Shown here: positions 3,704-30,552 of the stretch, one piece after another | How positions within the stretch are numbered: the first letter of the stretch is position 1 | Layout: every line of letters starts with the position of its first letter | Origin: a virus | Reading direction: 5' to 3' (one strand) | Virus record (IMG/VR): IMGVR_UViG_3300025120_000222 | Span: 1 to 35,201 of that record | Length of the DNA: 35,201 bases | Notes under the pieces: generated by a model | What the model saw: only the letters and a program-made list of their open reading frames with translations | Databases searched by the model: none | What the model was told of the DNA's origin: nothing | Program-made: the position numbers and the translations under genes

Positions 3704-3715
3704 TATTTATTTATT
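3704..3715 (-). promoter_or_regulatory. Late-promoter-like AT box before gp8
   Basis: Two overlapping AATAAATA boxes on the minus strand lie 15 to 26 bases before the gp8 ATG and overlap the stop codon of the giant gene. T4 late promoters use TATAAATA; this differs by one base. A similar GATAAATA box precedes gp25. Assigning it as a late promoter is inference. Confidence 0.4.
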
Positions 3716-6700
3716 AGTTATAATTTAAATACTTGAGCGGGTCAAATCTCTCAACGATTGGAGATGTAGAAACTCCAACTAACCCATTATTATATGATGT
3801 AAATACATTTGCATCAGTTCTAGTTGGAATTGCAATTCTGCCCCAACTATACTCACCGAAGAAATTGCTATATCCTGTTCCAACAAGACCATTAAAGTCT
3901 TCAACACTAACTGTGACCTGGGCGACATATGTGATGCCGATACCTTGAACAGCAGTTTGTGCTATAGAAACAGCAGCGACTTCATAGATATTGTCGAGGA
4001 AAGTTGATCCAACACCAACAACACTATTATCTTGTCTCAAGGATGTCACTCCAAACCCAAGATTTGTCTTCAATGTGACAAAGTAGTATCCAGTCTGAAT
4101 TCCACTTACTGTAATTGCAGTTCCAACGATATTAGAATCTCTGAATAGAGAATCGCTTGGAATAACAAGGTCAAATATGATACCAGTAGAAGCAACACCA
4201 ACAGAAGTTGTAGAAACTCCCGATATAATTCCAAAGTCGCCTGTATAGGATACGGTCTTGATTTCTTCAACGGGAGTTCTTGATTTTTCGATCAAAACTA
4301 CCGGTGGATTTGTGGAAGTGTATCCAGTTCCTGGCGAAGAAACAGTTATTGTAGAAACTGTACCAACCCCAGAAATAGTTACATCTGCCGATGCTCTTTG
4401 TGTTGTTCCCAATCCAACTGGATTTGCGATAGTTATGGAAGGGGCGAAAGTATAACCAATACCACTTCCAGTAATAGAAATAGAACTGATAGTTCCCAAT
4501 CCAGATACGACTGTAGTTGCGGAAGCACCAACAATAACGTCTTGAGATATTATTCTAATATGCTTGTTGTCAGTCGTATTCTCTTTTGCATTATCGAAGA
4601 ATGTTCTTACATTTTCAACAAAGATAAATGTAGATCCAACACCAACAGACTGAATAATTCTTGTATTTGGATGAATCAGTGGTTCGTAGATAATTCTATC
4701 TTTTGCGACAAACTCGCCATTTACAAATTTATCCTCAGTCTGTCTACACCACTTAACTGATCTATCATAAGATTCATCTGTGGTGATTCCTGGGCCAACG
4801 TACAGATTTGTATCAATTGTGTCAGCGGAATTTACATTATAAACTGCTCTGGTGTTTTGTTGGAAAGTGAAATCGTCATCATCCAATCTAACAGTATCAC
4901 CTTTCTTAATAGTCTCTAATATATCAACATCAAGAACGTCTACAGAAGAAGAACCTTGATAGAAGAGAATCTTTGTTGTATCTCCTACTTTTGGTGCTTC
5001 TGTGAAGTTAATGAAACTACCACCATTAAATGTATATCCTTGTCCAGGAACCTGGAGAATATCATTAACAAATACAAGCAGTGTTGCTTCAACATCAATC
5101 AAAGAACCAGCAGAAGATCTAATGGTTTTTTGATTCAATTCAACTTTAATTGGGAATGACTTTCTTGAACCATCAAATAAGTTATCAATATTATCAATAA
5201 CTAAAAGATTTCCAATAGACCAACCGGAGAAACTATCAGAATAAGTTGTCTCAATTGTGAGTTGGAATTCCTCATATGAAAGTGTTGGATTTGTTGGAAT
5301 TCCTGTAAGTCCACCAATAGATGCTGTTAAGATTTCTCCCTGGCCATATGCATAACCACTATTTTCAATAGAGAACTCAATAATACTAGAACCTTGACCA
5401 ACTACAATATTAGCAGTTGCCTGACTTCCTAAACCAGAAGCGGAAGAAGAACTATAAACAAGAGGAATATTTGAATAAGATAATGGATCATCAAAGATAA
5501 TGAGTGGCGGATTTGTGGAAGTGTATCCAGTTCCTGGGTTAGTAATAGCAACACTTACAATATGTCCGCCACTGATAGCAGCAGTACCGATAAATTCAAT
5601 GTTAGAAATTCCAGTACTGAACGTCGCAACTCCAACATTTACAACAGTTTGGATTCCTACTCTATATCCAGAACCACTATTTCCAATACTGATAGAAGAA
5701 ATAGTTCCAAGACCAGATACAGTAGCAGTGCCTCCAGCAGCAACCAGTGGTTGATATCCAAATCCTTGAGTGGAACCAACAGAAACGATGACTCCTCCAA
5801 GAGGAACATTTGCAGTATTGATATCAGATGTTATTGAAGAAATTGTTCCAGTGAAGTTTACACTAGTAATACCAACATTCTCCCCAAGGGTATAATCTCC
5901 TTTCTTTTGAGTTGCTTGTGGTCCTTGGAATATCTGATTGACCAAAATAACTGCATTATCTGTAGAGAATCCAGTCACATCCGAACCGCGTGACTTCAAA
6001 TTGAATGAGGTGACAAGACCAGTAAATTGTGATGATACATCATCAAAAACATAATTGTGTGCATAAGGTTCAGTGGTGGTATCGGGTATACCAGATCTCA
6101 TAAATGATCTTCCACTAAATGTGGAATGAGTAGCAATACCAACATAATCCACATCATCTGGACTTCCTGTAGTTGTTCCAATTGGAGTTAATCCTTTTGG
6201 TGGAGATATGAAACTAATTTTGTTATCTACGATGTTATAATCACCATCAACTTTTGTCACTAACGCACCACTTGAATGGGTTGAAATTCCAGTTCCCATC
6301 CATTTTCTTCTAACTCTCATTATGTTAGTGCTTCCAACACCAACTGCTTCAACCCGTATAACCTCATTACCAATTTCAAGTAGATTGCCACTAAAGATTG
6401 ATGTAATACCACTCAATGTAATAGTGTTTTCAGTGACTTTAAACTCTTGTGACAGTGTTGTTGTAACTGCGATAGCGACGATTGGAGATTGAATTACATT
6501 ATCAATGGAAAGAACGACTCTGGAGTTTTGCTGCTTAGAAGTAAGTGAGTGAGAAGTTCCAATACCAACAGAAGTAATATCTAAAGGTGTTGGAACAGTT
6601 TTGAGTGCATTCTCAACACTACCTGCAAGTTTAATTGAAATATCATCAACTTTAATAGCATACACGGTAGTAGGAAGTTTGTCTGTTACACCAACTCCAG

Positions 6701-9700
6701 GAATATTTGTAGAACTAATCCCAATTGCCTGAGTTGTTCCTGCACCAGCGTGTTCATAAACTAATTCCTCTCCAGTAACAAAGAAGTGGTTTGGAACCTG
6801 AATAGTATCTTTAGCAACACTAACGACAGTGGATGCGCTACCAACAAAGTATCTTTCAAAAATTGGAAGTTGCTTATGAGTTAATTGGAACTCTCTCTTA
6901 ACATCACTATCTGTTCCAGTGTAATCTCCATTTCCAGTTAAGATTGATGCGTTAGTAAGGTTGATTCTGGTATTAGTATTGCTAGTATCTACCAAACGAA
7001 GTGCGTTTTGGAAAACACGAACTTCAACATCTGCAGATGCAATTGGAGTAAATGTAAGTTCAGTATTGCTACCAGATAATTGAGCATCAAAAGAACCAAG
7101 ACTAGATTCGGTTTCCAAATTACCAAACTCCGAAATATATGCATCTCTAGAATCGCTGGCCAGAGTTATTTCTGAGATTTGATATTGAGAATTTGTCTTA
7201 TCTTCAATAGTTGCGATATAGTATGCACAATCAAAGTCACCTGATGGATATTGGGCAACTGATGTTGCTACTGGAGAAGATGTGGACGCAATAGATGTTA
7301 TTCTGGAGTCTAATCGTGCAGTATCCATAGTATAAGTTCCGACACCAACTGAAGCAGTATCTGCAATAGAAACCCTTATGGTGTTGACATGATGAGTAAC
7401 CCCAAGTGCAACGTTTGGAGTAAAATCAATATTAACATTAGAACCAGATAAGTATGCACTATAAGTACCAATTCCTGCAGAAAGTGTTCCAGTATCTGAT
7501 ACTAATTGTCCATATTCAATAAGGTTTACTTCACTTCCATCATGAATTACTGTCAGTTCGTCAAACTCAAAATAAGAACTATCGTCTGCTGCATATTGAA
7601 CCTGTATTTTAGATGCTCTGTATGTTGAGGCAATTCCAACAATTGTAGTTGCACTGCTAGTTCCTGTAGTAATAGATGTTGTACTACTAGCAACCTTAAC
7701 AGTATCTCCAAAATCAGTACTACCAATACCCGCAAAAGTATCTTCAAGAGTATATGCAAGTGTGCTTACATTATAATCATTTAATGAATACTTAGTTGGA
7801 TAGAATAATAATTGACCTTCAGTTCCAAGAATATTAAATTCAAAAGAACCAAGGTTATCAAAGGTTGGAATATCTCCATATTCATTTGTATATCCAATTC
7901 CATTGTCATCATGAATTAGAGTAACAATACTAAGTTGTTTTTCATCCGAAAATCTTACATCATCAATAAGTACAAAATACTTTTTAGATCTTGCAAGAGA
8001 AATGTCAAACAGATTGACGGTACTAAATCTTTCTACTCTTGGAAGGTCATTAAACTGTGGACTCAAATCATCAATAGTAAGAACTCTGTTCCCAACAGAT
8101 TCAATATAATCTTGAAGTGTGCGACTATTGAATACAATTTCATTTGATGCAACAGTAGAATCAACATTTAAAGTCAACTCTGTTGCTAAGTCAAAATCGT
8201 TTACGCAATTTAAATCAACTTCTGATATGAAGTCTGCAATTCCAATGAAAGTCCCTTCATTTTGATTGGTGCTAATGCCAACATCATCAGGATCTTTAGA
8301 TTCTACAATCAAGTCGGAGAACTTCTTAAATCCTGCAGTATGATTAAGAGAACTTACTGCATTATCCCACTTTGCATATTCAACTCTAGACTTCAGTGCA
8401 TATGAGAAGTACTGATAATAGTCATTATCATGCAATCTTTGAATGCTGTTATTGAGGAATCCAACTTCATTCAACCACCCTTTCTTGACCACAGAAGAAT
8501 CGTCAACGTTATATAAAGAATTAAACAGATTGACTGCTACAATATTTGCTATAGATTTTGAAGAAGAACCAACAACATTCTCTTCAATCTTGAAAGCATT
8601 AATTGCAGATACCTTAAGGTGTCCAAGTCTTGGATTCCAAGAATTGACAATACCAGAAGAAGATGGAGAAGTTATAGGTTCTCCTCTAAAGAACTCATTT
8701 ACACCTAAAGTAATGTCAAATATTGGGAAGTGCTTTGATGGAATTACTCTACCGACAGAATTTAATGCATCATATGTGCCTGGAATTTCTCCACTAGCAA
8801 GGTACTCTGAAAGATTATATGTAATTGATCCATTTGCGCCACCAATGTTTGGATCCATTTGAGTAACATTGAATCGACTGTAGTTGTATCGAGATGAATT
8901 ATATCCTTTTACAGTATTTCCAACTCCAACACTGATGTTTTCAATTAAAACAGTTTCGCCAACAGCGAAGGGGAAGTCTGATAAACTACTATAACTAGAA
9001 CCCAAAGAAACAGTAACATCTTTAGTTGCTGAATCAAATGTAATATTTTTAATTGAAACTCCGTTTGTATTATTGATTGGAATAATAGTTGGAGTAGTAT
9101 CACTTAAAGAAAATGTGTTTCTAGAAATGGTAACAGTATCGTCCCCAAGTTCATAATTCAAATCAACATCAGAAACAACTTGATTTGTTAAACCATCAAG
9201 AACAACCAAGTCTGGAGCAAGGATATAGTTTTGACCAACAGAAGATATACCAATAGAAGCAAATTTATTATAAGGATTTACTATTAAAATCTGCGGAAGT
9301 TGTGCTTCAGGTCTTAACGTTTTATCTACAGAATATTCAAAACCAATATCTTGAATATCAACTTTAGTGACCTTACCAATATCAAAACCTGCAGGGACAA
9401 GAATAGCATCTGTTCCTAGTCCACTATTAATTCTTGAAATGTTTGGCAAAGAATGATAGTTTCTACCTCTAGAAACCATAGAAACTTCTGCAATTGAACC
9501 ATAAGCAGTTGTGGAGTTTGTATTATAAAATAATTCACCATCAGTAGGAATATATTGATCTTCTGAAGGAGCAGCAAAAATACTAAATGAGAACGTAGTA
9601 GATCCAATTCCACTTATATAATTTTGCTGCGTAAGAACATTGTTTTTTACAACTAATTCGTTGTAGTTTTTAATATTCTCCGAATCAGAAGTAATTTCTT

Positions 9701-12700
9701 TCTTAACTGCAGTGTTAAGAGTTAGATTGATGGGAACTGCTCCATAATATAAAACCTGCGGTAGATTTTCTGTAACCTTGATAGTTAGTTTTGCCAGGGT
9801 GCTTAATCCAACAGAACCACTCTTAGTTACTTCAAAGTTTTCGGTAACAGACGAAGAATAGAATTGATTTTTAAGTTCTCTGTCCGAGAAAATTCCAAAG
9901 TCAAATGCTGAGTAAGATGTTGAATTATTTGTGAATGAAAGAGAAGAATCAGAAAGATCAAACTCTAAAGTTTTATTTCTTTCCAAAATCAATGGTGGAT
10001 TTACTTTTGAAATCGTTCCAGAAGAAGTTCCTGTAATATTGACAAAAATTGGAGATGCCTTCAGTGCATCTGTTATACTTTTGCATAGTTTAATTTTATC
10101 ATTGCCTACAACAAAAACATAGTAGATTTCATTGTCTGCAAGGCCGGTAGCGGGAGTTATGGCAGTATGAATTACTTTCTGCCCTCTAGACAGATTGTGA
10201 TTCGTAATTGTTATAATATCAGATGCAGTATCAACATCAGAAGCAGTAAAACTTCTAGGATCAATTACAAGTCTTCTATGGTAATCATTATATGCTACAG
10301 AAATAGTAGTCGTAATACCTGCAAGAACATTTAAAGACACATAATCATTAAATTGAAGACCGTGAGTTGAACCGGTGGTTATGGTTGCACTGTTCTTGTT
10401 AACAGTAGCAATTAAGATATTCTCTGGATTTGTTTTTAAACTATGCTTTTCTCCGGTTCCAATACCGGTAAAGAATAATGTATTAACATAAACTGAACTG
10501 TTGATACCAACAAAAGAACCAGTTGTACCAATACCAATTTTCGCAGTTGCAATTCCAATCAGATCATTAGATATTTTTCCTGCATATACTGTCTGACCAT
10601 TTGTAAGACTGAAGATATCAATACCATCGGTGGATACACCGATAGAGTCTCCACTATTATTGAAATATGTTAAAGTATCTCCAGTTGTTAATTTGTGCTC
10701 TGGAAGATAAAATGCTTTAGTTGGAATGTTAATATTTGAGATTCCGGCACCAGGATTAGCAAAAACTAAAGTTAAACCAATTCCAACTCCAGCGGTCGTT
10801 CCTACCCCAACGGTTTCTTGTGGATCAAAATATAATTCTCTACTATAATCAAACTTTGATTCATTGTTAACTAAGTAAATGGAGGTTGTTAACTTTCTTG
10901 GTTTTTCTTCTAGTAATGAAGAAGCAGTATGTGAGGAACCAACAGTTCCATCATATGCTCTTTCAACACGTAGTCTAGATGATAACTTATCTATATTTAA
11001 GATTCTAACTTTTTCTGTACCAATTCCCAGAACATCATTTTCTCTAAATCTTGGGAATGAAAGATCACCAGTTACATTAAAGTATGTTACTATTCCTGTA
11101 GAAGAAGTAGATTCAACATCTAGAGCAAGATTTAATGACTCTGTATGAATTCCTACCAGGAAAAATCTATCTTCAATATTAGTTGATGATGTCGATACTC
11201 CAGACAAAGATATTTTATCAAAGTTGGATAACCCATGAGGTGCAGTTGCAAAACCAACAAAACCGCTTCCGTTGGTCAATGGGAAAAACTCTACATTTGA
11301 TACAGTAGACTTTGCAATACTTATATTATTGATTCTCTGTCCAGTTATTTGGGACACCACTGCACGTGCGCCATTTCCGCCGGTATCTTGATTGTCAAAT
11401 ATGACTTTATCATTTACTTGATAATTCTGCCCACTACTGCTGATGCCAACAAATAAAACATTACCCTTTGTAGTATTTGCTACAATAATGTTCTGCTTTT
11501 GAATTTTATTAGAATCAACAATAAAATCATACTCAGTGTTGGGATTCAATACACCATATGGAGTAGTATTTCTAGACAGATTGGTTTCATTTAAATTGAT
11601 ATCATCTTGGTTTGATTTGATATCGTAGTTGTATGGGATAGGAGTTGACTTATATTTGTCTCCAATAAAATATGGGAACTCTGGTTTTCTATAACTCTTA
11701 AACTGTCCACTAGACTCTATAGCATTTGTATTGATTGTAGTAAAATATGCATAAACACCGTTAGGAAATTCTGGAGTCTTGCAAAATCTTCCATTATATT
11801 CATCAAGGTCCCCAGAACCATCATAAACATAATCATTAGTAAAGAATCCGTCAATATAAGTTACATTACCATTGGAGTCTAATGGATTTGGTCTATCAGT
11901 AGATGGTGATAATGTATATCCAGATTTTAGTAGTCTTGGAGTTCCTCCAGTTATCGTGCCATATCCATAAGGTCCATAGATTGGATTGCCATCATAAGCA
12001 TATCCAATAATTGGAGAATGAGTGTCTGATAATACTTCCCTTCCATTCTGAAGTTTAAGGTCAGTGATAAATGTTTCTTGACCGTTTACAATTTTGGTTC
12101 CTAAAATGGATCTTCTCAGTTTTCTTGGTGAATATATGTGAGTATATTGAAGTCCATAAGAAGAGTTTGCTCCCTCAAATATTACACCATCATCTTCAGA
12201 TATTTTATTGTTGGAAATAAGTCTATCAAAAATATTAATATTCCATATTTTTGGATTAAATCCAAACTGTGCATTCTTTCCAGCACTAATTACCTTAATT
12301 GTAGTATCTTTTTCTAAGTATGCTCTACCACCAGTGATTACTTTAACTTCCGTTATAACTCCACCAGAAATTACAGGAGTAAGAATTGCGCCATTTCCAG
12401 TTCCAATTACTTCTAAAGTTGGAGGAGCATTATATGAACTGCCAGAATTAAAGATCAATACTTGAACAATCTTTCCATCATTGATAATTGGTTTTAGTTG
12501 AGCACCAGAACCACTATCCAAACTGAACGTTGGTTGTTTATTGTAATTTAAGATTTCAGAGGAACCATAACCAACACCACCATCTTCAACAAATACAGAC
12601 TTAACTTCTCCCCTAAAGATAGGTTGAATCTCTGCGTTGAAGTTTTGTCCAGTGAGAGTAGATACTCCAATCTCACCTTTTACTTCTACTGTAATTGAAG

Positions 12701-15686
12701 GGTAGTTGAAAGATTGTGTTCCAGATCCAGAAGAAGTAAAGTTAATGTACTCTGCATTTGCATAGTAAAATTCTGGTGCAGTTGAACCAACACCAACTTG
12801 AGAAAGTAGTACACTATTATTATCAATTTTAGTTACATAATAAGATCCATCAGTAAGTCCACCAATTGCAGTAGTTCCTGAAGTATACTTGATTAACTCA
12901 CCACTTCTATAACCATGAGACTTTAATGTGATTATATTAGATGAAGTATCAACGCCAACAGATGTTGCTGTGGTTATTCTATTCTTATATCCACTGCCTG
13001 GATTAACTACCGAAATTGAAGAAATAATACTCTTCTGATTTGCACATCTGAAGGAATGATTTCCTGCACCATACTCAGTAAGATTAATTACGTTTGATGC
13101 AGAAATCGCATCATCATAATTCTTATGAAGCTTTACAGCATATGCATCCTGAACAGATGCATAGTATTGTGCATCTGTAGACAATCCACCAACTGCAGTC
13201 TGTCCATCAGTTTTATAGATTACTAACTCACCATCTCTAAATTTGTGGAATGATGAGAATTTAATAGTGTTGTTTGTTAAATTAACTAATCCAGCATCTT
13301 GAATAGAGTTAAAACTAACTGAATGTGAAATAGACTTAAGAATTGGTTTTGCAACCGCACCTTTACCACTTCCGCCACTAATTGTAACTATAGGATTTGA
13401 AACATAATCAAAACCAGGGTCTATAATGCTAATTCCTTCCAAAGAACCTTCTATGCCACAGAAAGCAGAAAGACCTGCTCCTACGTCTCCTGTGGTCTGT
13501 AGAATGGGTGGATTGACTATATCATAATCCTCACCATTTGAAAGAACATCGACAGTCTGAATTGCACCATAGAAAATGGAATCTCTAGACTTGTAGTTTA
13601 AAATCTCTACACCATTAACAAGAATACCCGTAGTTCCTGGAAGTGTTGTATGCTCTACACTATCAGTTACTGGATCTTGAATTTTTCTAATAAGTTTTTG
13701 AGTTTCTAACTCTTGATAAGCAAAATCAGTATATCTTAAAACACTGTTGGTTACTGTTCCAGTAAGAGTTATATAAATGCCACTACTAATATTTGCTCTA
13801 CTATTAGACAATCTAATAGTACTATCATCAATTCTTTTGGCGAAATATACTCCTTCATCTATATTAAGAGTATTAGTAGAACTTTCTGGAATATAGGTTA
13901 CTGAATCACCAGTTTGAAATCCGTGGTTTGCAAATATAATATCTAAACCATTAAATGTTCCAGAGAACTTTATAGATCTATCAGTTGTATCAAGGGGTTC
14001 GTTCAGATAACTTGGGATAGATGAAGATGCAACATATAAGAATTCCTTATCAGAGTAAACATTCTGAACGTTTGTGGAGTAGATTTCAGAAGTTGGATAT
14101 GCACTAGAGTCAACCTTTGATATTAGTTTCTCAATATTTTGTACTGTTTGTGTTTGAATTTCTCCTTGACCACCAACAATAATACTATTTTTGTTTAAGA
14201 TGGAAATGATATTTGTTTCCTTTGTAGTTCCATCATTAAGAATTATATTTGCAGAATTACCAACAGAAAACCCATGCTCATCAATTGTGTTGATTCTGTA
14301 TGTAAAGTTTGCATTATCTACAACTGATGCCAAATCTACAGTATACTTTGTTGCAACGTTAAAGAACCAATCATTTCCAAAAGAAGAACTTAAAGTAATA
14401 CCTAAATTTTTATTTTGTATTACGTCTCCTGGTTGATAATAATAAGGATTCTCGTAAAAATCTAAATCAGAGATAACTCCAGTAACTCTAACTTTAACTT
14501 TTGAATCTTTATCATTCGGATCTGTCAATACATATGCAAATGCATCAACTCTCACATTCTGCTTTGGTTCAATATCACGAGATATTCCACTACACCCATA
14601 AAATTGAGTTAATGATTTTGACTTATATTGAATCTCAATAACATCGGTATCAGAGTAATTAAGAATTAAAGTTCCCGATGAAGGAAATCCAACAGTAGAA
14701 TCTACATCAATAGTAGTGTCTCCTACTAATGTCTTCGTAATTACTTTAGTAGTTGCATGAATAGAGAACTTGCCAAAGATAGAACCTTCAACATCAATAT
14801 CTTTGTCATAATCATAGTCTAAACTTATGACATGATATGTTTTGCCGCCTCTTACAATTTCCTCAACTTTATTAATAGAACCACTTGCGGCAGGATATTC
14901 ATTAGTTTCATCCTGAAAAAGAGTTCTATTTTCTAAATCATCTGCACTACCTTCTAATAATTCTACAACAAGGTCTCTAGAAACTCTATATTCTGCATCC
15001 GAAGGAATAAAAAGATAGTCTCTTGGTCTGATGACTTCTACGTCTTCACCATAAAGTGCTCTGAATAAAATTTCAAAAGATTGGTCTGCACCCTTTGAAG
15101 TATAAAAGTCGTTAGATTGCTTAAGAAAGATTCTTTCATCGAGACCAGTATATAACTCTCTATTTTCAAATCCTGGAGTTATTTGCTTTTTAACTTTAGT
15201 GAAGAACTGCTTTAAGAAAAGTACACTTAAATTAGTTACAGTACTTTCAGATACGTGCTGATCAATATCAGTATCTTCAAATACTAATTCATCAGGAGTG
15301 TTCGATCCTTGATATGAAGTGACACCACTAAATCCACGAATACATCCAGTAAACGTAGTGGAAGTGATTCCAGTATATGTAATAATTTCAGAACCAATCT
15401 TAATCAATCCATAGGACTTTGGAAATCCATAAGTTGATTTAACAGTAATTGTATCATCAATAAAGGATACATCAGCACCTAATGTCGTTGAATCAACAAT
15501 ATTTGTTAGATTATCTACCTTTACGTACTGATCGATATTCTGTAAAATATCTAAAGTTGAACCCTGCCCCTCTAAAGAAAGATAATATTGTGATAAAAAC
15601 TCACTTACAAGAGGAAATTCTTCTCTTACAAACTCTGGAAGTTGGTTTGCAACGATTGCACTAATCTTGATTCTAGTTTCTATCAT
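3714..15686 (-). CDS. Giant virion structural protein in the gp7 position (YHYH-like domain, beta repeats)
   Basis: This single uninterrupted frame encodes 3990 residues and occupies a third of the window. It starts three bases after the gp6 stop. The N-terminal 250 residues (MIETRIKISAIVANQLPEF, then LKQFFTKVKKQITPGFENR) match the start of large gp7-position proteins I recall from cyanophages. A YHYH-like domain lies at about residues 1190-1330, with HSPIIGYAYDGNPIYGPYG and later VYAYFTTI. Three related modules of about 125 residues occupy about 2560-2935. At least a dozen short units of the form I.SI.V.N.GSGY..P.V.I are scattered through the chain, densest near the C-terminus. The likely place is the baseplate wedge or a tail appendage. 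Most of the length has no T4 gp7 equivalent (1032 aa), so homology over the full chain is not claimed. Confidence 0.8.
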   Translation of the reverse strand: MIETRIKISAIVANQLPEFVREEFPLVSEFLSQYYLSLEGQGSTLDILQNIDQYVKVDNLTNIVDSTTLGADVSFIDDTITVKSTYGFPKSYGLIKIGSEIITYTGITSTTFTGCIRGFSGVTSYQGSNTPDELVFEDTDIDQHVSESTVTNLSVLFLKQFFTKVKKQITPGFENRELYTGLDERIFLKQSNDFYTSKGADQSFEILFRALYGEDVEVIRPRDYLFIPSDAEYRVSRDLVVELLEGSADDLENRTLFQDETNEYPAASGSINKVEEIVRGGKTYHVISLDYDYDKDIDVEGSIFGKFSIHATTKVITKTLVGDTTIDVDSTVGFPSSGTLILNYSDTDVIEIQYKSKSLTQFYGCSGISRDIEPKQNVRVDAFAYVLTDPNDKDSKVKVRVTGVISDLDFYENPYYYQPGDVIQNKNLGITLSSSFGNDWFFNVATKYTVDLASVVDNANFTYRINTIDEHGFSVGNSANIILNDGTTKETNIISILNKNSIIVGGQGEIQTQTVQNIEKLISKVDSSAYPTSEIYSTNVQNVYSDKEFLYVASSSIPSYLNEPLDTTDRSIKFSGTFNGLDIIFANHGFQTGDSVTYIPESSTNTLNIDEGVYFAKRIDDSTIRLSNSRANISSGIYITLTGTVTNSVLRYTDFAYQELETQKLIRKIQDPVTDSVEHTTLPGTTGILVNGVEILNYKSRDSIFYGAIQTVDVLSNGEDYDIVNPPILQTTGDVGAGLSAFCGIEGSLEGISIIDPGFDYVSNPIVTISGGSGKGAVAKPILKSISHSVSFNSIQDAGLVNLTNNTIKFSSFHKFRDGELVIYKTDGQTAVGGLSTDAQYYASVQDAYAVKLHKNYDDAISASNVINLTEYGAGNHSFRCANQKSIISSISVVNPGSGYKNRITTATSVGVDTSSNIITLKSHGYRSGELIKYTSGTTAIGGLTDGSYYVTKIDNNSVLLSQVGVGSTAPEFYYANAEYINFTSSGSGTQSFNYPSITVEVKGEIGVSTLTGQNFNAEIQPIFRGEVKSVFVEDGGVGYGSSEILNYNKQPTFSLDSGSGAQLKPIINDGKIVQVLIFNSGSSYNAPPTLEVIGTGNGAILTPVISGGVITEVKVITGGRAYLEKDTTIKVISAGKNAQFGFNPKIWNINIFDRLISNNKISEDDGVIFEGANSSYGLQYTHIYSPRKLRRSILGTKIVNGQETFITDLKLQNGREVLSDTHSPIIGYAYDGNPIYGPYGYGTITGGTPRLLKSGYTLSPSTDRPNPLDSNGNVTYIDGFFTNDYVYDGSGDLDEYNGRFCKTPEFPNGVYAYFTTINTNAIESSGQFKSYRKPEFPYFIGDKYKSTPIPYNYDIKSNQDDINLNETNLSRNTTPYGVLNPNTEYDFIVDSNKIQKQNIIVANTTKGNVLFVGISSSGQNYQVNDKVIFDNQDTGGNGARAVVSQITGQRINNISIAKSTVSNVEFFPLTNGSGFVGFATAPHGLSNFDKISLSGVSTSSTNIEDRFFLVGIHTESLNLALDVESTSSTGIVTYFNVTGDLSFPRFRENDVLGIGTEKVRILNIDKLSSRLRVERAYDGTVGSSHTASSLLEEKPRKLTTSIYLVNNESKFDYSRELYFDPQETVGVGTTAGVGIGLTLVFANPGAGISNINIPTKAFYLPEHKLTTGDTLTYFNNSGDSIGVSTDGIDIFSLTNGQTVYAGKISNDLIGIATAKIGIGTTGSFVGINSSVYVNTLFFTGIGTGEKHSLKTNPENILIATVNKNSATITTGSTHGLQFNDYVSLNVLAGITTTISVAYNDYHRRLVIDPRSFTASDVDTASDIITITNHNLSRGQKVIHTAITPATGLADNEIYYVFVVGNDKIKLCKSITDALKASPIFVNITGTSSGTISKVNPPLILERNKTLEFDLSDSSLSFTNNSTSYSAFDFGIFSDRELKNQFYSSSVTENFEVTKSGSVGLSTLAKLTIKVTENLPQVLYYGAVPINLTLNTAVKKEITSDSENIKNYNELVVKNNVLTQQNYISGIGSTTFSFSIFAAPSEDQYIPTDGELFYNTNSTTAYGSIAEVSMVSRGRNYHSLPNISRINSGLGTDAILVPAGFDIGKVTKVDIQDIGFEYSVDKTLRPEAQLPQILIVNPYNKFASIGISSVGQNYILAPDLVVLDGLTNQVVSDVDLNYELGDDTVTISRNTFSLSDTTPTIIPINNTNGVSIKNITFDSATKDVTVSLGSSYSSLSDFPFAVGETVLIENISVGVGNTVKGYNSSRYNYSRFNVTQMDPNIGGANGSITYNLSEYLASGEIPGTYDALNSVGRVIPSKHFPIFDITLGVNEFFRGEPITSPSSSGIVNSWNPRLGHLKVSAINAFKIEENVVGSSSKSIANIVAVNLFNSLYNVDDSSVVKKGWLNEVGFLNNSIQRLHDNDYYQYFSYALKSRVEYAKWDNAVSSLNHTAGFKKFSDLIVESKDPDDVGISTNQNEGTFIGIADFISEVDLNCVNDFDLATELTLNVDSTVASNEIVFNSRTLQDYIESVGNRVLTIDDLSPQFNDLPRVERFSTVNLFDISLARSKKYFVLIDDVRFSDEKQLSIVTLIHDDNGIGYTNEYGDIPTFDNLGSFEFNILGTEGQLLFYPTKYSLNDYNVSTLAYTLEDTFAGIGSTDFGDTVKVASSTTSITTGTSSATTIVGIASTYRASKIQVQYAADDSSYFEFDELTVIHDGSEVNLIEYGQLVSDTGTLSAGIGTYSAYLSGSNVNIDFTPNVALGVTHHVNTIRVSIADTASVGVGTYTMDTARLDSRITSIASTSSPVATSVAQYPSGDFDCAYYIATIEDKTNSQYQISEITLASDSRDAYISEFGNLETESSLGSFDAQLSGSNTELTFTPIASADVEVRVFQNALRLVDTSNTNTRINLTNASILTGNGDYTGTDSDVKREFQLTHKQLPIFERYFVGSASTVVSVAKDTIQVPNHFFVTGEELVYEHAGAGTTQAIGISSTNIPGVGVTDKLPTTVYAIKVDDISIKLAGSVENALKTVPTPLDITSVGIGTSHSLTSKQQNSRVVLSIDNVIQSPIVAIAVTTTLSQEFKVTENTITLSGITSIFSGNLLEIGNEVIRVEAVGVGSTNIMRVRRKWMGTGISTHSSGALVTKVDGDYNIVDNKISFISPPKGLTPIGTTTGSPDDVDYVGIATHSTFSGRSFMRSGIPDTTTEPYAHNYVFDDVSSQFTGLVTSFNLKSRGSDVTGFSTDNAVILVNQIFQGPQATQKKGDYTLGENVGITSVNFTGTISSITSDINTANVPLGGVIVSVGSTQGFGYQPLVAAGGTATVSGLGTISSISIGNSGSGYRVGIQTVVNVGVATFSTGISNIEFIGTAAISGGHIVSVAITNPGTGYTSTNPPLIIFDDPLSYSNIPLVYSSSSASGLGSQATANIVVGQGSSIIEFSIENSGYAYGQGEILTASIGGLTGIPTNPTLSYEEFQLTIETTYSDSFSGWSIGNLLVIDNIDNLFDGSRKSFPIKVELNQKTIRSSAGSLIDVEATLLVFVNDILQVPGQGYTFNGGSFINFTEAPKVGDTTKILFYQGSSSVDVLDVDILETIKKGDTVRLDDDDFTFQQNTRAVYNVNSADTIDTNLYVGPGITTDESYDRSVKWCRQTEDKFVNGEFVAKDRIIYEPLIHPNTRIIQSVGVGSTFIFVENVRTFFDNAKENTTDNKHIRIISQDVIVGASATTVVSGLGTISSISITGSGIGYTFAPSITIANPVGLGTTQRASADVTISGVGTVSTITVSSPGTGYTSTNPPVVLIEKSRTPVEEIKTVSYTGDFGIISGVSTTSVGVASTGIIFDLVIPSDSLFRDSNIVGTAITVSGIQTGYYFVTLKTNLGFGVTSLRQDNSVVGVGSTFLDNIYEVAAVSIAQTAVQGIGITYVAQVTVSVEDFNGLVGTGYSNFFGEYSWGRIAIPTRTDANVFTSYNNGLVGVSTSPIVERFDPLKYLNYN
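4306..4334. repeat. 29-bp exact direct repeat, copy 1
   Basis: This 29-base sequence inside the giant gene recurs identically at 5509-5537. On the minus strand it encodes the PGTGYTSTNPP part of the beta-type repeat. Exact identity over 29 bases inside diverged protein repeats suggests recent duplication or gene conversion. Confidence 0.85.
5509..5537. repeat. 29-bp exact direct repeat, copy 2
   Basis: Second copy of the 29-base sequence at 4306-4334, about 1.2 kb away and in the same orientation within the giant gene. It again encodes the PGTGYTSTNPP segment. Bases outside the unit diverge at once. Confidence 0.85.
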
Positions 15687-20211: not shown

Positions 20212-20491
20212 AGATTTTTTATGGGGGAAAATTTTTTTTATATAGCAAACCTCTGCAGCGTTTTTATATCTGCTGGAATTTTTTTTATGAATGTGATATA
20301 GAGAGGTCGATCTGTCACCTCTGTAGGTTAGGGTAGTTATGGGTTTTTATAACGCCCCGCCCCCGTTACGCCCCCCGGACGTTAACACATAAGGGCGCAA
20401 TAACTGCCGAATACGCATACTGCCATTATAGCAAATAAGGGGACAATGTGTCAACAACTGCCCCTCACTAAGTATCACTTAACTCGTACTA
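20212..20491. other. Non-coding leader region with G-rich island and hairpins
   Basis: No convincing gene lies here. Reading the minus strand from the promoter at 20454-20425, the leader first carries a G-rich block (about 20392-20358; runs of six, five and four G). It then has a hairpin with arms AGAGGT / ACCTCT around 20303-20325, and finally very AT-rich sequence with TATATAAAA just before the 65-aa gene. The G block is striking in this AT-rich genome. Confidence 0.6.
20425..20454 (-). promoter_or_regulatory. Consensus sigma-70 promoter (18-bp spacer)
   Basis: Minus-strand TTGACA (20454-20449) and TATAAT (20430-20425) are both perfect, with an 18-base spacer. The transcript would start near 20418 and run through a leader of about 200 bases to the 65-aa gene at 20211. 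It lies directly after the stop of the 87-aa gene. Confidence 0.8.
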
Positions 20492-21233: not shown

Positions 21234-21407
21234 TCACCACGTGTCTGGAGTACTTAAGTTTTCCACATAAGCATCACACCTCTCAGATCCTTCGAGTTCA
21301 AACAACCTTTCCCAATTGATATTGTTGGGATCAAAATCTCCCAGTGCTTCAATATTCAAGGTGATCCGATAACGTTGCTTCTGTGCTTGTTGATAGATAG
21401 CAGGCAT
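21234..21407 (-). CDS. Small hypothetical protein, 57 aa
   Basis: Translation gives MPAIYQQAQKQRYRITLNIE with LGDFDPNNINWERLFELEG next and a stop after STPDTW. The codon pattern is protein-like and the gene fills the space between a sigma-70-like promoter (21437-21465) and copy 2 of the conserved element. The fold is probably a strand (RYRITLNIE) plus a helix (NWERLFEL). It falls just under common length cut-offs and is easily missed. I do not recognise a function, though the strand-linker-helix form recalls other small phage proteins here. Confidence 0.65.
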   Translation of the reverse strand: MPAIYQQAQKQRYRITLNIEALGDFDPNNINWERLFELEGSERCDAYVENLSTPDTW

Positions 21408-21436
21408 GATTCTCCGAGTGGTGTGAAGACTTTAAC

Positions 21437-21465
21437 AGTGTAGAATGGGCGTGGCTATATGTCAA
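21437..21465 (-). promoter_or_regulatory. Sigma-70-like promoter before 57-aa gene
   Basis: Minus-strand TTGACA (21465-21460), 17-base spacer and TACACT (21442-21437; four of six consensus bases). The transcript would start near 21430, about 23 bases before the 57-aa gene at 21407. Confidence 0.55.
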
Positions 21466-21540
21466 CCTCATAACCGCTATTTATGAGGAATGCTTATGTT
21501 TTTTGAGTGTCAAGTCCCCAAAAAACTTATGAGCGGGTGC

Positions 21541-21569
21541 TTGACATTTTTGCGCGGTTGTGATAGAGT
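21541..21569 (+). promoter_or_regulatory. Plus-strand sigma-70-like promoter
   Basis: TTGACA at 21541-21546, 17-base spacer and TAGAGT at 21564-21569. It points away from every gene in the window; nothing on the plus strand downstream looks coding. A transcript would run through the stem-loop at 21627-21667. Confidence 0.4.
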
Positions 21570-21592
21570 GCGTGCTTAGATCACAAGACTCT

Positions 21593-21638
21593 GAGACATT
21601 TAATTGATCATAAGATTAGGATCTATGAGACATTTAAT
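21593..21638. repeat. Direct repeats GAGACATTTAAT
   Basis: The 12-mer GAGACATTTAAT occurs at 21593-21604 and 21627-21638, 34 bases apart. The second copy also forms one arm of the stem-loop at 21627-21667. Confidence 0.8.
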
Positions 21639-21667
21639 AAGACCTAAGTATAAGGTCTATATGTCTC
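21627..21667. repeat. Two-step stem-loop
   Basis: The outer stem GAGACAT/ATGTCTC (21627-21633 with 21661-21667) encloses the inner stem AGACCT/AGGTCT (21640-21645 with 21653-21658) around a 7-base loop. Both stems are perfect. It could form in RNA from either strand or as a DNA cruciform. Confidence 0.7.
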
Positions 21668-21786
21668 TTAATCATACTCATGGATAGTATCCTGAGAACA
21701 TTCTCAATAGCAACATAAAACAGCAATATACCTTTTTTAATACATTAATAAACGTTTTTTAATGAAAAAATGGTATTTATCCTGTT

Positions 21787-21814
21787 AAAAAAGGGGTATT
21801 TTGAGATATACCCC
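21787..21814 (-). terminator. Rho-independent terminator (minus strand)
   Basis: Read on the minus strand, GGGGTAT (21814-21808) pairs with ATACCCC (21799-21793) across an 8-base loop and is followed directly by six T (21792-21787). It lies 26 bases after the stop of the 30-aa frame and should end transcripts from the small-gene group at 21840-22728. Confidence 0.85.
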
Positions 21815-21839
21815 CATTTCTTATGTTATGTACTGTCTA

Positions 21840-21932
21840 TCAATAAAGAGTATCAATTGCCTCAAGAATGAGAAGAATATCATTGCCATTCTGTGCAGAT
21901 TCAAGAGCAGAGAAGAGATCAGACTTAGACAT
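21840..21932 (-). CDS. Very small protein, 30 aa
   Basis: The frame MSKSDLFSALESAQNGNDIL ends LILEAIDTLY and would form one amphipathic helix pair. I recall similar peptides of about 30-50 residues (FxxALExAQNGNELL.IL) in cyanophages, which is the main reason to believe it. It ends just before the terminator at 21787-21814, which fits a last gene of a unit. There is no clear ribosome-binding site, so confidence is moderate. Confidence 0.5.
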   Translation of the reverse strand: MSKSDLFSALESAQNGNDILLILEAIDTLY

Positions 21933-27011: not shown

Positions 27012-27050
27012 TGCTTACACTACAGATACACTTTGATGGTGAGTAACTTT
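27012..27050 (-). promoter_or_regulatory. TTACTCACC element, copy 10
   Basis: TTACTCACC, 13 bases, TGTAGT, then GTAAGCA. It overlaps the stop codon of the 141-aa methyltransferase half and precedes the 60-aa gene by 12 bases. Confidence 0.65.
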
Positions 27051-27474
27051 AATTGAAGAAAGATTCCAGTCCTACAGGGTCACCAAATCCATAATCATAT
27101 TCTAGTGCATTAGTACAAACGTAGTGAGGGTGATCAACTGGAACACCAATTCTTTTACACAACTCAGCGTGATTATCTTCCATAAGTTCTACTGCAAACA
27201 GCATATTATCATTGATATGTGTTAAGTCATGATACTTCAATAATTCTGTTTGCAGTGCCAATAGGAAGTTCCCTGACCCCGCAGAATTATCAAGAAAAGT
27301 AGACTTAGGATCTTTTAGCGTAGATTTAGAGATTTCTGATACCATTTCAACACAAAGTTCAGCAGGAGTGAATACTTCACCTGTCTCATCAATTCTATCA
27401 TCGGTCCTTTCAATGTCCGACCCTGTAGTAGAGTTGTGCTGATTCTTTTTGGAAGTATCGTCTTTTCTAAACAT
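27049..27474 (-). CDS. SAM-binding half of an N6-adenine DNA methyltransferase, 141 aa
   Basis: The protein carries TGEVFTPAEL (31-40), the motif X region typical of type I/II adenine methyltransferases. LDNSAGSGNF (61-70) is motif I for SAM binding, AVELMED (94-100) is the acidic motif II, and CTNALEYD fits motif III. It then ends, before any NPPY motif IV. The catalytic motif sits in the preceding gene instead, so the two probably form one enzyme. The start MFRKDD at 27474 overlaps that gene by eight bases; an ATG at 27552 would overlap by 86. Could also be a regulatory or decoy fragment. Confidence 0.82.
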   Translation of the reverse strand: MFRKDDTSKKNQHNSTTGSDIERTDDRIDETGEVFTPAELCVEMVSEISKSTLKDPKSTFLDNSAGSGNFLLALQTELLKYHDLTHINDNMLFAVELMEDNHAELCKRIGVPVDHPHYVCTNALEYDYGFGDPVGLESFFN

Positions 27475-28474
27475 AAAAATTTGGAATGAAGTTATTGATA
27501 TATTCTCTATCTTCTTGTGAAATGTTGTAGTAGTCAAAGACAGAATCGTCATCCCATTGTTGATTCAATGGCGGCATAGGTACACAGTCAAGGTATCTTT
27601 TAATATACAAATGTTGGGAAACTTTGTTGATAGACAGAGCAAACCTTGCAAACTTAGTCTTTAGATAAGACACCATATTTGCTCTCTCTTCAGAACTATT
27701 CAGAAGAAAACAACGTGCTCCTTTTTTGTAACCATACAGATCACTTCTTTCATAGAAGAATGTCCAGAAGTCATCTTTACAAGTCTTAGTCTTATCTTTT
27801 GCCCTACCATCTCCACAAATTTCAGGTGCCTTCAGTGTGCAATCTGTTGCACGATCTTCCAACTTAGCAACATGCTGATAAACATTACTAGAAATAGCAA
27901 GTTCTTTGATATTGTTGACAATATCCCAATGCTTTTCTGTTGGTTCCCAGTATCCACTAGGGAGATCATCTAGACTGTCAATATAATACTTATTGCCAGT
28001 GAAATCATACTCAACTTCAATAGGGCCAACGTGGTTTTTTGCAGCATAAGTGATAACCAATGGAGCAGCAAATTGTGCAGGAGCAAAGACATGATTGCCA
28101 TTGAAGAACTTCAACTTCTTGACTCTACCTTTTAGAGCATTCTTTACCTGTCGCTCAATATCTTTTGTGGTACGATACAACCAACCAGCAGGATGAATTA
28201 AACTCACATTGTCCGAATTATTAAGTGCCATGAGTAAGAACTCAAGGTGAATGTTTTTTAGATAAGGTGGATTGCCAATGGTATGAGTAAAGTGCATATT
28301 GGTAAGAGATTCGCGGTCAGTAGTTACATTTATTCTATCATCAATCTGCTTAATTGCATAGATGTGTCTGGGATCATCTTCCCACACAGTAATATCTTCG
28401 GGAGCATATCCTTGGTGCTTGATTGCACACAAAGAGTGCAAACCTGAAGGGTCTCCAGTGATAAGAAGTTTCAT
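27467..28474 (-). CDS. Catalytic half of an Eco57I-like N6-adenine DNA methyltransferase, 335 aa
   Basis: GNPPYLK (67-73) is motif IV of N6-adenine methyltransferases, followed by VSLIHPAGWLY. The C-terminus (VPMPPLNQQWDDDSVFDYYN) resembles the end of Eco57I/type IIG enzymes, where W.D..L...f.L...E..yI is common. The first 50 residues (LLITGDPSGLHSL, then VWEDD) look like a worn Rossmann SAM site lacking the usual D-AGSG. The intact motif I is in the next gene. The ATG overlaps the helicase stop by one base (TGATG), so translation is coupled. Target-recognition specificity, probably in about residues 130-290, cannot be read from sequence. Confidence 0.85.
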   Translation of the reverse strand: MKLLITGDPSGLHSLCAIKHQGYAPEDITVWEDDPRHIYAIKQIDDRINVTTDRESLTNMHFTHTIGNPPYLKNIHLEFLLMALNNSDNVSLIHPAGWLYRTTKDIERQVKNALKGRVKKLKFFNGNHVFAPAQFAAPLVITYAAKNHVGPIEVEYDFTGNKYYIDSLDDLPSGYWEPTEKHWDIVNNIKELAISSNVYQHVAKLEDRATDCTLKAPEICGDGRAKDKTKTCKDDFWTFFYERSDLYGYKKGARCFLLNSSEERANMVSYLKTKFARFALSINKVSQHLYIKRYLDCVPMPPLNQQWDDDSVFDYYNISQEDREYINNFIPNFYV

Positions 28475-30552
28475 CAGATGAACAGTTCGTCAAACAATTC
28501 TACACTAAGTTGCTGCTGAGTCTTACCTGAGCACGACAGTTTATGAAGTGTCTTACACTCATCTTCGTTCATAGAGTGTCGAATATCGTCCGCTGCTTGA
28601 GTAATAATGTGACTCAAAGTTTTTGGATTGATAACATCCTCGTTGATTAATTGACGAAGAATCTCCTCACAATCCATAGTATCATGAATGTAATTCTCAG
28701 ATTCAATTACGGTATAGATTGAGTTGACTTGCTCTCCACACTTAAGACAGTGGTAGATAACCAAGGGCACACGTTCTAGGATTGCCTTGATAGTCTCTTG
28801 CTTGGAATAAAGCATAGACTTCTCAGACTTCTCCGATTGATTCTCCTTCTTCTTGTTAGTTTTGCCATTAGCGTTGTTATCATTCAGAAGGACGGACTTA
28901 ACAACATTGCCATAACTTGCTTCAAGATTTACATCAAACTCAATGTTCTCCAAGTTCTTGAAATTCAGGTGATCTGCAATACCAGAGACCAAATTGATTG
29001 TGTTACCTACATCAGCAGCGAGAACTGCAACAACCTGATCCTGATTAAGAGTGACAAACTCTTCATTCCACTCAAAAATAGCAGCGAAGTCAGTGTAAGT
29101 GTACTGAGTAAGTTCTGGATTAGATTCACATGCAGCAGCATAAGTCTGTCGAAGAGATTCAAGACAACGCTGTGGGCAGAAGTCAATCACCTGCCAATCA
29201 TGCTCACCGGATCCTCCCCTGAACGCAAATTGTGTCCAGAATTCAATACTCTTACCCTCTTTACAATTGATAATGGTATCAATCTTCTTCGCAGTTACTC
29301 CGCGAACGTTAGCACTTTGAGTAATAATGCAGGAAGCAACATTCTCATTAATATGCTTGTTGATCATATCGGAATCAACTTTAGCACTGCCATGTGCAAC
29401 TAGAGGAGCAAATCGTGTGCCCTTCATATACTCTGCAAATGCATCACATGCTTTTACAGATGACAGAGTAATATAAAGATGGGTTGCATCTTTTAGAAGA
29501 CGATTGTTGCAATGAACATGGCGTTCCCCAACAAACATTCTACTTACAAACTCCTGGACAAGTGCAGGTTCCATGAAGTTACCTTCCTCATCAACATTGA
29601 AGAGATTCTTCATAGCATCGGGGTCATCTCCATAGACTGCCTGATACTGAGCAGATTCATACTTGGCAAGGATAATCTTCATCGAAGGACAGTTATTAAG
29701 TCCCAACTTCTTCTCAAGTTGCTCTTCAAAATAGGAGTAAATGAAACGATTGGAATCTGGAAAATCCCATACCATTTTGTATGCAGTTCCAGTCACATAC
29801 AGCACGGGGCAGTTAATTGCCTCGCACAGTTTGTTGATCATTCCTTTGCTGTAACCATGATCTGCTTCATCAAAAACAAGCAGGTCAACATCAACAGGAA
29901 GGTTCAAAGTTTTACGCTGACCTTGAACAGTAGACCACAGAATAATTTGCTTGTCCGTGTTGTACCAATACTCAATCTGTTCTTTATAGTCTTTGTCTTT
30001 GAGGTTAATATAGACAAGGTTATCAAAGTTCCTGAACTTAACAATATCGTCCTTCCATGATTGCTCGGGAGAACTGAACATGGCAACAACCAAAGTTACC
30101 TTGAATCCCTTATCAACAATGTGCGAAAGTGTCATGATAGATTTACCTGCACGACACTTTGCAAACAACAAGAACTCCAGGTAATCTGCCTGTGCCTTAG
30201 CAACAAATTCTTTCTGATACTTTGCAAGTATAATGGTATCTTTCTTGTCAGGAGTTGTAGTAAAGAACTTTTCTTCAATAATGTTCTTGATAATATCCAG
30301 CGTGGTCTTATGTGAGAACCACTCTGCATATTTGCGAACGTTAGGAAGTTTCTTTAGATATGCATGAATCTCCGTGTCAAGATAAGAGGAATCTTTCCAC
30401 CAACCAAGTAAAACAAGTTTTTCTCCTCTTGCTTTCAAATAGTTGTGAAACTTTGCCCAATCTCCATCTTTATGCCGCTCTTCAAACGTGCGTTCAGTTT
30501 GTCCCACACCAAACACTTTGTGATCTTCAGATGCAATCAAATAGATATTCAT
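28474..30552 (-). CDS. GIY-YIG-like / SF2 helicase fusion, restriction-type, 692 aa
   Basis: Residues 1-80 resemble GIY-YIG (T5orf172-type) nucleases: NIYLI, VFGVGQTERTFEER with Arg26, an acidic TEIHAYL (Glu61, His63) and EWF at 77-79. An SF2 motor follows with Walker A AKCRAGKS (131-138), DEADH (228-232), VTGTA (253-257) and an arginine-finger motif VI QFAFRGGSG near 444. A CLKC pair (602-605) may bind zinc with later Cys. Helicase plus nuclease beside a methyltransferase is the architecture of ATP-dependent restriction enzymes. The GIY of the first motif is NIY, so nuclease activity is inferred. It is co-transcribed with both methyltransferase halves. Confidence 0.85.
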   Translation of the reverse strand: MNIYLIASEDHKVFGVGQTERTFEERHKDGDWAKFHNYLKARGEKLVLLGWWKDSSYLDTEIHAYLKKLPNVRKYAEWFSHKTTLDIIKNIIEEKFFTTTPDKKDTIILAKYQKEFVAKAQADYLEFLLFAKCRAGKSIMTLSHIVDKGFKVTLVVAMFSSPEQSWKDDIVKFRNFDNLVYINLKDKDYKEQIEYWYNTDKQIILWSTVQGQRKTLNLPVDVDLLVFDEADHGYSKGMINKLCEAINCPVLYVTGTAYKMVWDFPDSNRFIYSYFEEQLEKKLGLNNCPSMKIILAKYESAQYQAVYGDDPDAMKNLFNVDEEGNFMEPALVQEFVSRMFVGERHVHCNNRLLKDATHLYITLSSVKACDAFAEYMKGTRFAPLVAHGSAKVDSDMINKHINENVASCIITQSANVRGVTAKKIDTIINCKEGKSIEFWTQFAFRGGSGEHDWQVIDFCPQRCLESLRQTYAAACESNPELTQYTYTDFAAIFEWNEEFVTLNQDQVVAVLAADVGNTINLVSGIADHLNFKNLENIEFDVNLEASYGNVVKSVLLNDNNANGKTNKKKENQSEKSEKSMLYSKQETIKAILERVPLVIYHCLKCGEQVNSIYTVIESENYIHDTMDCEEILRQLINEDVINPKTLSHIITQAADDIRHSMNEDECKTLHKLSCSGKTQQQLSVELFDELFI

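Follow-up and report, generated by a model that had tools for sequence, protein, structure and literature searches.

Organization of the non-coding gap

The window, by which we mean the whole stretch of 35,201 nucleotides analysed here, is a 35.2-kb virus record of a T4-like cyanophage of the Kyanoviridae, and its nearest BLAST matches are the Synechococcus phages Bellamy and S-SM2 and other Kyanoviridae. Its genes include gp6, gp25, and Kyano_Gp96, and apart from two shadow ORFs all ORFs of at least 150 aa lie on the minus strand. A gap of 432 nt (21408-21839), which is exactly non-coding, separates two short minus-strand ORFs of 57 and 30 aa. The 30-aa ORF is probably a real small gene that falls under the usual size limits of annotation; its DNA is kept in two sibling loci (L063 and L069). 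The gap and its borders hold the following features:

21234-21407, minus strand: 57-aa ORF of unknown function (phrog_12516), under control of the divergent promoter
21465-21437, minus strand: divergent sigma70-type promoter of the 57-aa gene, TTGACA-17-TACACT
21541-21569, plus strand: antisense sigma70-type promoter, TTGACA-17-TAGAGT and a TG ahead of the -10; a primer or R-loop RNA is proposed to start here
21578-21587, plus strand: AGATCACAAG box, expected 5' end of the transcript
21589-21656, plus strand: two iteron-like 34-nt units, each with one GAGACATTTAAT
21627-21667, plus strand: two-step perfect stem-loop, in which the second iteron pairs with ATGTCTC around an inner AGACCT/AGGTCT
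21682-21709: protein-box slot, which holds DnaA boxes in about half of the relatives
21682-21692: dyad GGATAGTATCC, in the box slot
21693-21706: dyad TGAGAACATTCTCA, in the box slot
21700-21709: ATTCTCAATA, in the box slot
21725-21800: 72% inverted repeat enclosing an AT-rich inverted repeat (21743-21764), proposed unwinding element
21815-21792, minus strand: intrinsic terminator, proposed to shield the AT tract against gene transcription arriving from the right
21840-21932, minus strand: 30-aa ORF bordering the element, translation MSKSDLFSALESAQNGNDILLILEAIDTLY

All the features listed in an earlier note on this DNA, namely direct repeats, a two-step stem, two dyads, an AT-rich inverted repeat, promoters on both strands, and a terminator, are present in these 432 nt. 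Taken singly they are weak, and it is their combination and above all their conservation that carry the case. The pattern of the antisense promoter has one match in the window and none in 100 shuffles. By number, promoter-like sites show no excess (12 found versus 12.5 expected); the weight of the promoters lies in their conservation. The terminator is good on the minus strand, and its plus-strand version has a poor T-run.

Exact copies of GAGACATTTAAT occur at 21593-21604 and 21627-21638, spaced 34 nt within units that are 71% identical to each other; allowing at most one mismatch, there is no third match in the 35.2 kb (0.59 expected). The pair alone is weak evidence because two copies anywhere were reached by 11 of 100 shuffles. 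When near-exact 12-mer repeat pairs were considered in the 180 bp past the promoter, the window exceeded all 60 shuffles (p = 0.016). The outer stem of the two-step structure is formed by GAGACAT/ATGTCTC (21627-21633 and 21661-21667) and the inner one by AGACCT/AGGTCT (21640-21645 and 21653-21658), with an MFE of -14.6 and z = -2.84. This stem, one of the features listed in the earlier note, is absent from L063 and L069, the two close siblings examined, and is therefore probably not the working part.

Conservation in related phages

A conserved element, of which the gap is a single copy, was recognised at 104 loci, 90 of them distinct. The element consists, in this order, of the antisense sigma70 promoter, the AGATCACAAG box, direct repeats, the protein-box slot, and the DNA that has the lowest stability in its surroundings. 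With the gap as query, BLAST matched 41 phage records, mostly in short pieces. Seven of the matched phages, set side by side, have this common order, with the promoter opposing most neighbour genes and followed by a AGATCACAAG-like box, direct repeats, TTTTCCACA boxes in some of them, and an AT-rich tract. The exact pattern of promoter and AGATCACAAG matched 96 IMG/VR stretches and had no match in 84,980 prokaryote genomes; a relaxed second pattern brought only five additional IMG/VR stretches. These 96 stretches, the seven named phages, and the window make up the 104 loci, which the removal of 14 duplicates reduced to 90.

Important for the reading of these numbers is that the 96 IMG/VR stretches were chosen by promoter and AGATCACAAG, so that the conservation of these two parts is built in, for the AGATCACAAG box only partly, as it is also present in most of the BLAST-found loci. 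The search pattern made no demand on repeats, boxes, AT tract, polarity, or gene position. Loci ending too early were left out, leaving 79 of the 90 for the analysis of boxes, 80 for that of repeats, 73 for that of stability, and 71 for that of terminators.

The element is present across the Kyanoviridae. A model of the core sequence (R1) matched nine of 12 cyanomyovirus records in ten places, that is, in a single place per record except for a second, weak match in S-CAM9. The element of S-RSM4 was recognised by eye, as probably was that of P-SSM4, and P-SSM2 has no recognisable element, though gp25 and gp6 are present. It was further seen in six of seven additional named phages. S-SZBM1, one of these seven, which has DnaA boxes only and lacks the promoter part, was not counted. 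When the ACG-2014b copy served as query, BLAST returned 219 phage records, and in 141 the match covered 80% or more of the query. The earlier note had named conservation in related phages as a check and its lack in close relatives as one of the outcomes that would refute its proposal; this outcome did not occur.

Near-exact 12-mer repeats in the 180 bp past the promoter are found in 51 of 80 elements versus 53 of 373 control segments, and in 41 of the 80 the repeats exceed shuffles at p < 0.05. The repeat unit varies by phage: it is 34 nt in the window and 22 nt in five copies in S-SKS1, and L089 has a perfect triple.

Several phages have short ORFs annotated on the opposite strand that overlap the element. 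A same-strand downstream gene is too rare to explain it. In S-CAM9 a 222-aa ORF of no known family lies downstream on the same strand. At another locus (L022, plus strand) a reading frame that by eye resembles a GIY-YIG endonuclease starts 198 bp past the promoter, right after the element; in T4, SegC lies beside oriE.

Position, polarity, and duplex stability

Relative to the gp25-gp6 baseplate genes, the element is antisense and located 2.6-7.5 kb on their 5' side; in Syn9 it is at 52.6 kb and in S-PM2 at 19.3 kb. In all nine records with the element gp25 is antisense to its transcript, at a distance of 2.7-7.5 kb, and among the IMG/VR-type loci with a near-full match the same holds for gp25 (50/50), gp6 (31/31), and gp96 (27/27). 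The flanking ORFs oppose the transcript in 76 of 85 loci, and six of the other nine have no 100-aa ORF by which to judge. T4 oriE has a similar place and polarity, being 5' of the gp6 baseplate genes with an antisense primer.

Near the element of the window, duplex stability is lowest in the 50-mer at 21732-21781, a value undercut at only 21 of the 35,152 positions of the window. The 50-mer of lowest stability follows the promoter in 71 of 73 loci, at a median distance of +167 bp, and for the median locus no other part of the DNA fetched is less stable. The order of T4-type origins, a promoter followed by an AT-rich unwinding element, is thus found in the window and in these 71 loci.

An exchangeable slot for protein boxes

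Most cyanobacteria have TTTTCCACA as their DnaA box according to PMC4674748, which also describes Prochlorococcus as having no DnaA box near dnaA. The motif TT(A/T)TCCACA occurs 91 times in 41 of the 79 elements (23.6 kb in all) versus 14 times in 568 kb of flanks, an approximately 156-fold enrichment, and clustered DnaA boxes are a feature of the family in these 41 elements. The largest 300-bp cluster of TTTTCCACA is at the element in Syn9 (two of four copies), S-PM2 (three of eight), ACG-2014b (two of seven), and S-SM2 (two of three); no TTTTCCACA is found at the element of S-CAM9 and Bellamy. The boxes are also regularly spaced. Of 44 tandem spacings, 29 are 20-22 bp and ten are 42 bp (together 39 of 44), and inverted pairs have a 13-14 bp spacing in 16 of 21 cases; in other genera inverted pairs are mostly spaced 23 bp. 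Judged from these distances, the phasing suggests that the bound protein would sit on a single face of the helix.

The window itself has no TTWTCCACA within 21408-21839 and hence no DnaA-box cluster there; its one TTTTCCACA is at 21259, inside a gene (1.33 expected by chance). Its slot is of a second type, characterized by TTGAGAA boxes: TGAGAACATTCTCA together with ATTCTCAATA. Among the 79 elements at least two DnaA boxes only were found in 38, TTGAGAA boxes only in 21, both in one, and neither in 19, so the two types nearly exclude each other (Fisher p = 4e-7). ATTCTCAATA is an exact match to the ten-base core of the Anabaena FurA consensus, published as AAATAAATTCTCAATAAAT (PMC4788461, PMC4005646). 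Its two copies in the window are not significant alone (two were reached by 5 of 100 shuffles), and over the family it occurs 12 times in 11 elements versus eight times in 568 kb of flanks. By this resemblance the window's slot is a candidate site for a Fur-type protein. In two other loci the slot holds different repeats, TGTGTTACA in L013 and a repeated 21-nt unit in L047, which are candidate sites for other proteins.

Compared with the window in 50-nt bins, the siblings L063 and L069 are 82-100% identical from 20050 to about 21600, 34-54% identical at 21650-21850, and 82-88% identical just beyond. The low-identity stretch of both siblings holds DnaA boxes. Since close siblings of the window carry DnaA boxes at this place, the slot is swapped as a cassette. 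On a gp25 tree (47 rows, few well-supported forks) the box type needs 13 changes, versus a minimum of two and a shuffled mean of 17.8, and on a gp6 tree (30 rows) it needs eight. As judged from these comparisons, the slot is exchanged repeatedly between phages.

A likely origin of replication and its alternatives

We consider it likely that the gap serves this T4-like cyanophage as its replication origin, or as its main early origin, and read it as an origin that would combine T4-like priming by a transcript with swappable boxes. The direct basis is the anatomy of the element, its conservation, position, and polarity, the enrichment and spacing of the DnaA boxes, the low duplex stability, and the cassette exchange. 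From these we infer that RNA is made, that it primes DNA synthesis, that DnaA binds the boxes where they are present, and what kind of protein may bind the slot of the window. The earlier note had left the choice between an origin and a small-RNA locus. Of these, the origin is well supported by the comparison (conserved order and place, antisense direction, clusters of phased DnaA boxes in roughly half of the relatives, and the most meltable local DNA). The support for it is partial in that the RNA folds more stably than shuffles and the GC skew shows no turn at the element.

In the proposed mechanism, unmodified host RNA polymerase would start at the antisense sigma70 promoter, and the transcript would cross the repeats and the slot before reaching the AT-rich tract. 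In this tract it may remain hybridised as an R-loop or aid melting, and it would prime synthesis of the leading strand in the manner of T4 oriF and, by annotation, of T4 oriE. Proteins on the repeats and the slot might hold the tract, open it, or load replication proteins; the slot binder would be DnaA of the host in roughly half of the phages of the family and another protein in the window. The minus-strand terminator would keep gene transcription out of the AT tract.

Several results count against an origin. GC skew, tried as a proof, has no extremum at the element in any of six genomes (S-SM2, S-CAM9, Bellamy, ACG-2014b, Syn9, and S-PM2). The folding of the RNA, the lack of a DnaA box in the window's gap and of DnaA boxes in half of the family, the lack of the element in P-SSM2, and the ORFs that overlap it in several phages point in the same direction.

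The main rival is a regulated early non-coding RNA in antisense orientation, tuned by host DnaA or a Fur protein, with the AT tract and the repeats being part of the RNA gene. The promoter is strong, its own strand has no conserved ORF, and the slot boxes are like regulator sites. Moreover, the RNA starting at the promoter is more stable than shuffles (z = -3.58 for 240 nt in the window, mean z = -1.7 over 80 loci). Yet the downstream half of the element is swapped wholesale, Rfam covariance models gave no match at gathering scores, and the two-step stem is not kept in L063 and L069; on the last two grounds a structured RNA gene was rejected despite the folding. The AT tract, extreme in its instability and fixed in place, is not accounted for by such a gene either. 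Furthermore, a terminator on the transcript's own strand was found in none of 71 loci, which fits a primer better than a discrete small RNA. Altogether we regard the regulated RNA as unlikely.

It is still less probable that the gap is no more than a region of divergent promoters with a terminator, in which the repeats are incidental. As this explanation would have it, 79 of 85 loci have a divergent promoter at most 200 bp upstream, versus 46 of 239 control segments, and a minus-strand terminator is present in 36 of 71 (7 of 204 control segments). The antisense promoter, however, aims away from every neighbour gene in 76 of the 85 loci, and the DnaA-box enrichment, the box spacing, and the duplex instability would be unexpected. 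Least probable is that the gap, without being an origin, acts as a decoy for the titration of host DnaA or some other factor of the host, by which host replication would be disturbed. A decoy would explain the clustered DnaA boxes of 41 of 79 loci but would need neither promoter, meltable tract, nor fixed polarity, would have to work with only two or three boxes, and leaves out the half of the elements, the window included, that have no DnaA box.

Comparison with known origins

The preferred reading, an origin primed by a transcript, has its closest parallels in T4. In the T4 record, oriE is annotated at 79355, 1.7 kb 5' of gene 6, with a primer RNA complementary to the gene 5 transcript. According to PMC3016281, oriF and oriG of T4 combine a promoter with an AT-rich unwinding element and are primed through an R-loop, oriE depends on an early promoter and has 12-nt repeats of unproven role, and the T4 origins have no common motif. 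Like oriE, itself early-promoter dependent, the cyanophage element lies upstream of the gp6-gp7 baseplate genes, has a putative primer antisense to late genes, and contains direct repeats. The element differs from oriE in being non-coding and in its frequent DnaA boxes; oriE lies inside gene 5, with RepEA and RepEB. Model R1 matched neither T4 nor KVP40, an empty result of little weight. Within 800 bp around T4 oriE the only multi-copy repeats found have a 24-nt period and are gene 5 coding sequence; these repeats (L226:2903-3070) may reflect repeats of the protein and not an iteron array. With oriF and oriG the element shares the promoter followed by an AT-rich downstream unwinding element, but those origins use MotA middle promoters and the cyanophage element has a plain sigma70-type promoter with repeats and a protein-box slot. 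By analogy, the element most plausibly works like a T4 origin and sits at the place of oriE, its likeness to oriE being one of place and polarity.

Clustered TTTTCCACA boxes beside AT-rich DNA also recall cyanobacterial oriC. The phage element differs in having only two or three boxes, downstream of an antisense promoter, and in that roughly half of the family lacks them. The iteron origins of plasmids are another parallel, as the element has an AT-rich tract adjoined by direct repeats, 10-36 nt long and varying by phage. The element is distinguished from them by being promoter-led and by having no recognised initiator gene adjacent to it.

Origins of cyanomyoviruses, which are very abundant phages, are apparently unmapped: a review (PMC2984593) cites a single theta origin predicted for Syn9, and no paper was recognised as describing the element, subscription journals being mostly outside the search. 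The element thus provides a precise, family-wide origin candidate for cyanomyoviruses. It suggests that T4-like phages, transcript-primed in T4 itself, may here recruit the host initiator DnaA or alternatives to it through a swappable cassette. More tentatively, and with less confidence than in an origin at the gap, we suggest that T4-like cyanophages share a promoter-led origin with an exchangeable initiator cassette, into which different lineages plug DnaA, Fur-type, or other boxes, and that replication start could in this way be wired to the host initiator or to the nutrient state.

Other features of the window

The best sigma70 promoter in the 3.5 kb scanned lies outside the gap, at 20425-20454 (minus strand) between two minus-strand ORFs; it is a perfect 12/12 match with TG before the -10. 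Within the baseplate cluster a 3990-aa ORF (3714-15686, minus strand) is much longer than T4 gp7. At 27049-28474 (minus strand) two overlapping ORFs of 167 and 335 aa resemble, by eye, pieces of one DNA methylase-type gene, and adjoining them is a 692-aa ORF (28474-30552) that is helicase-like by eye and has no Pfam match.
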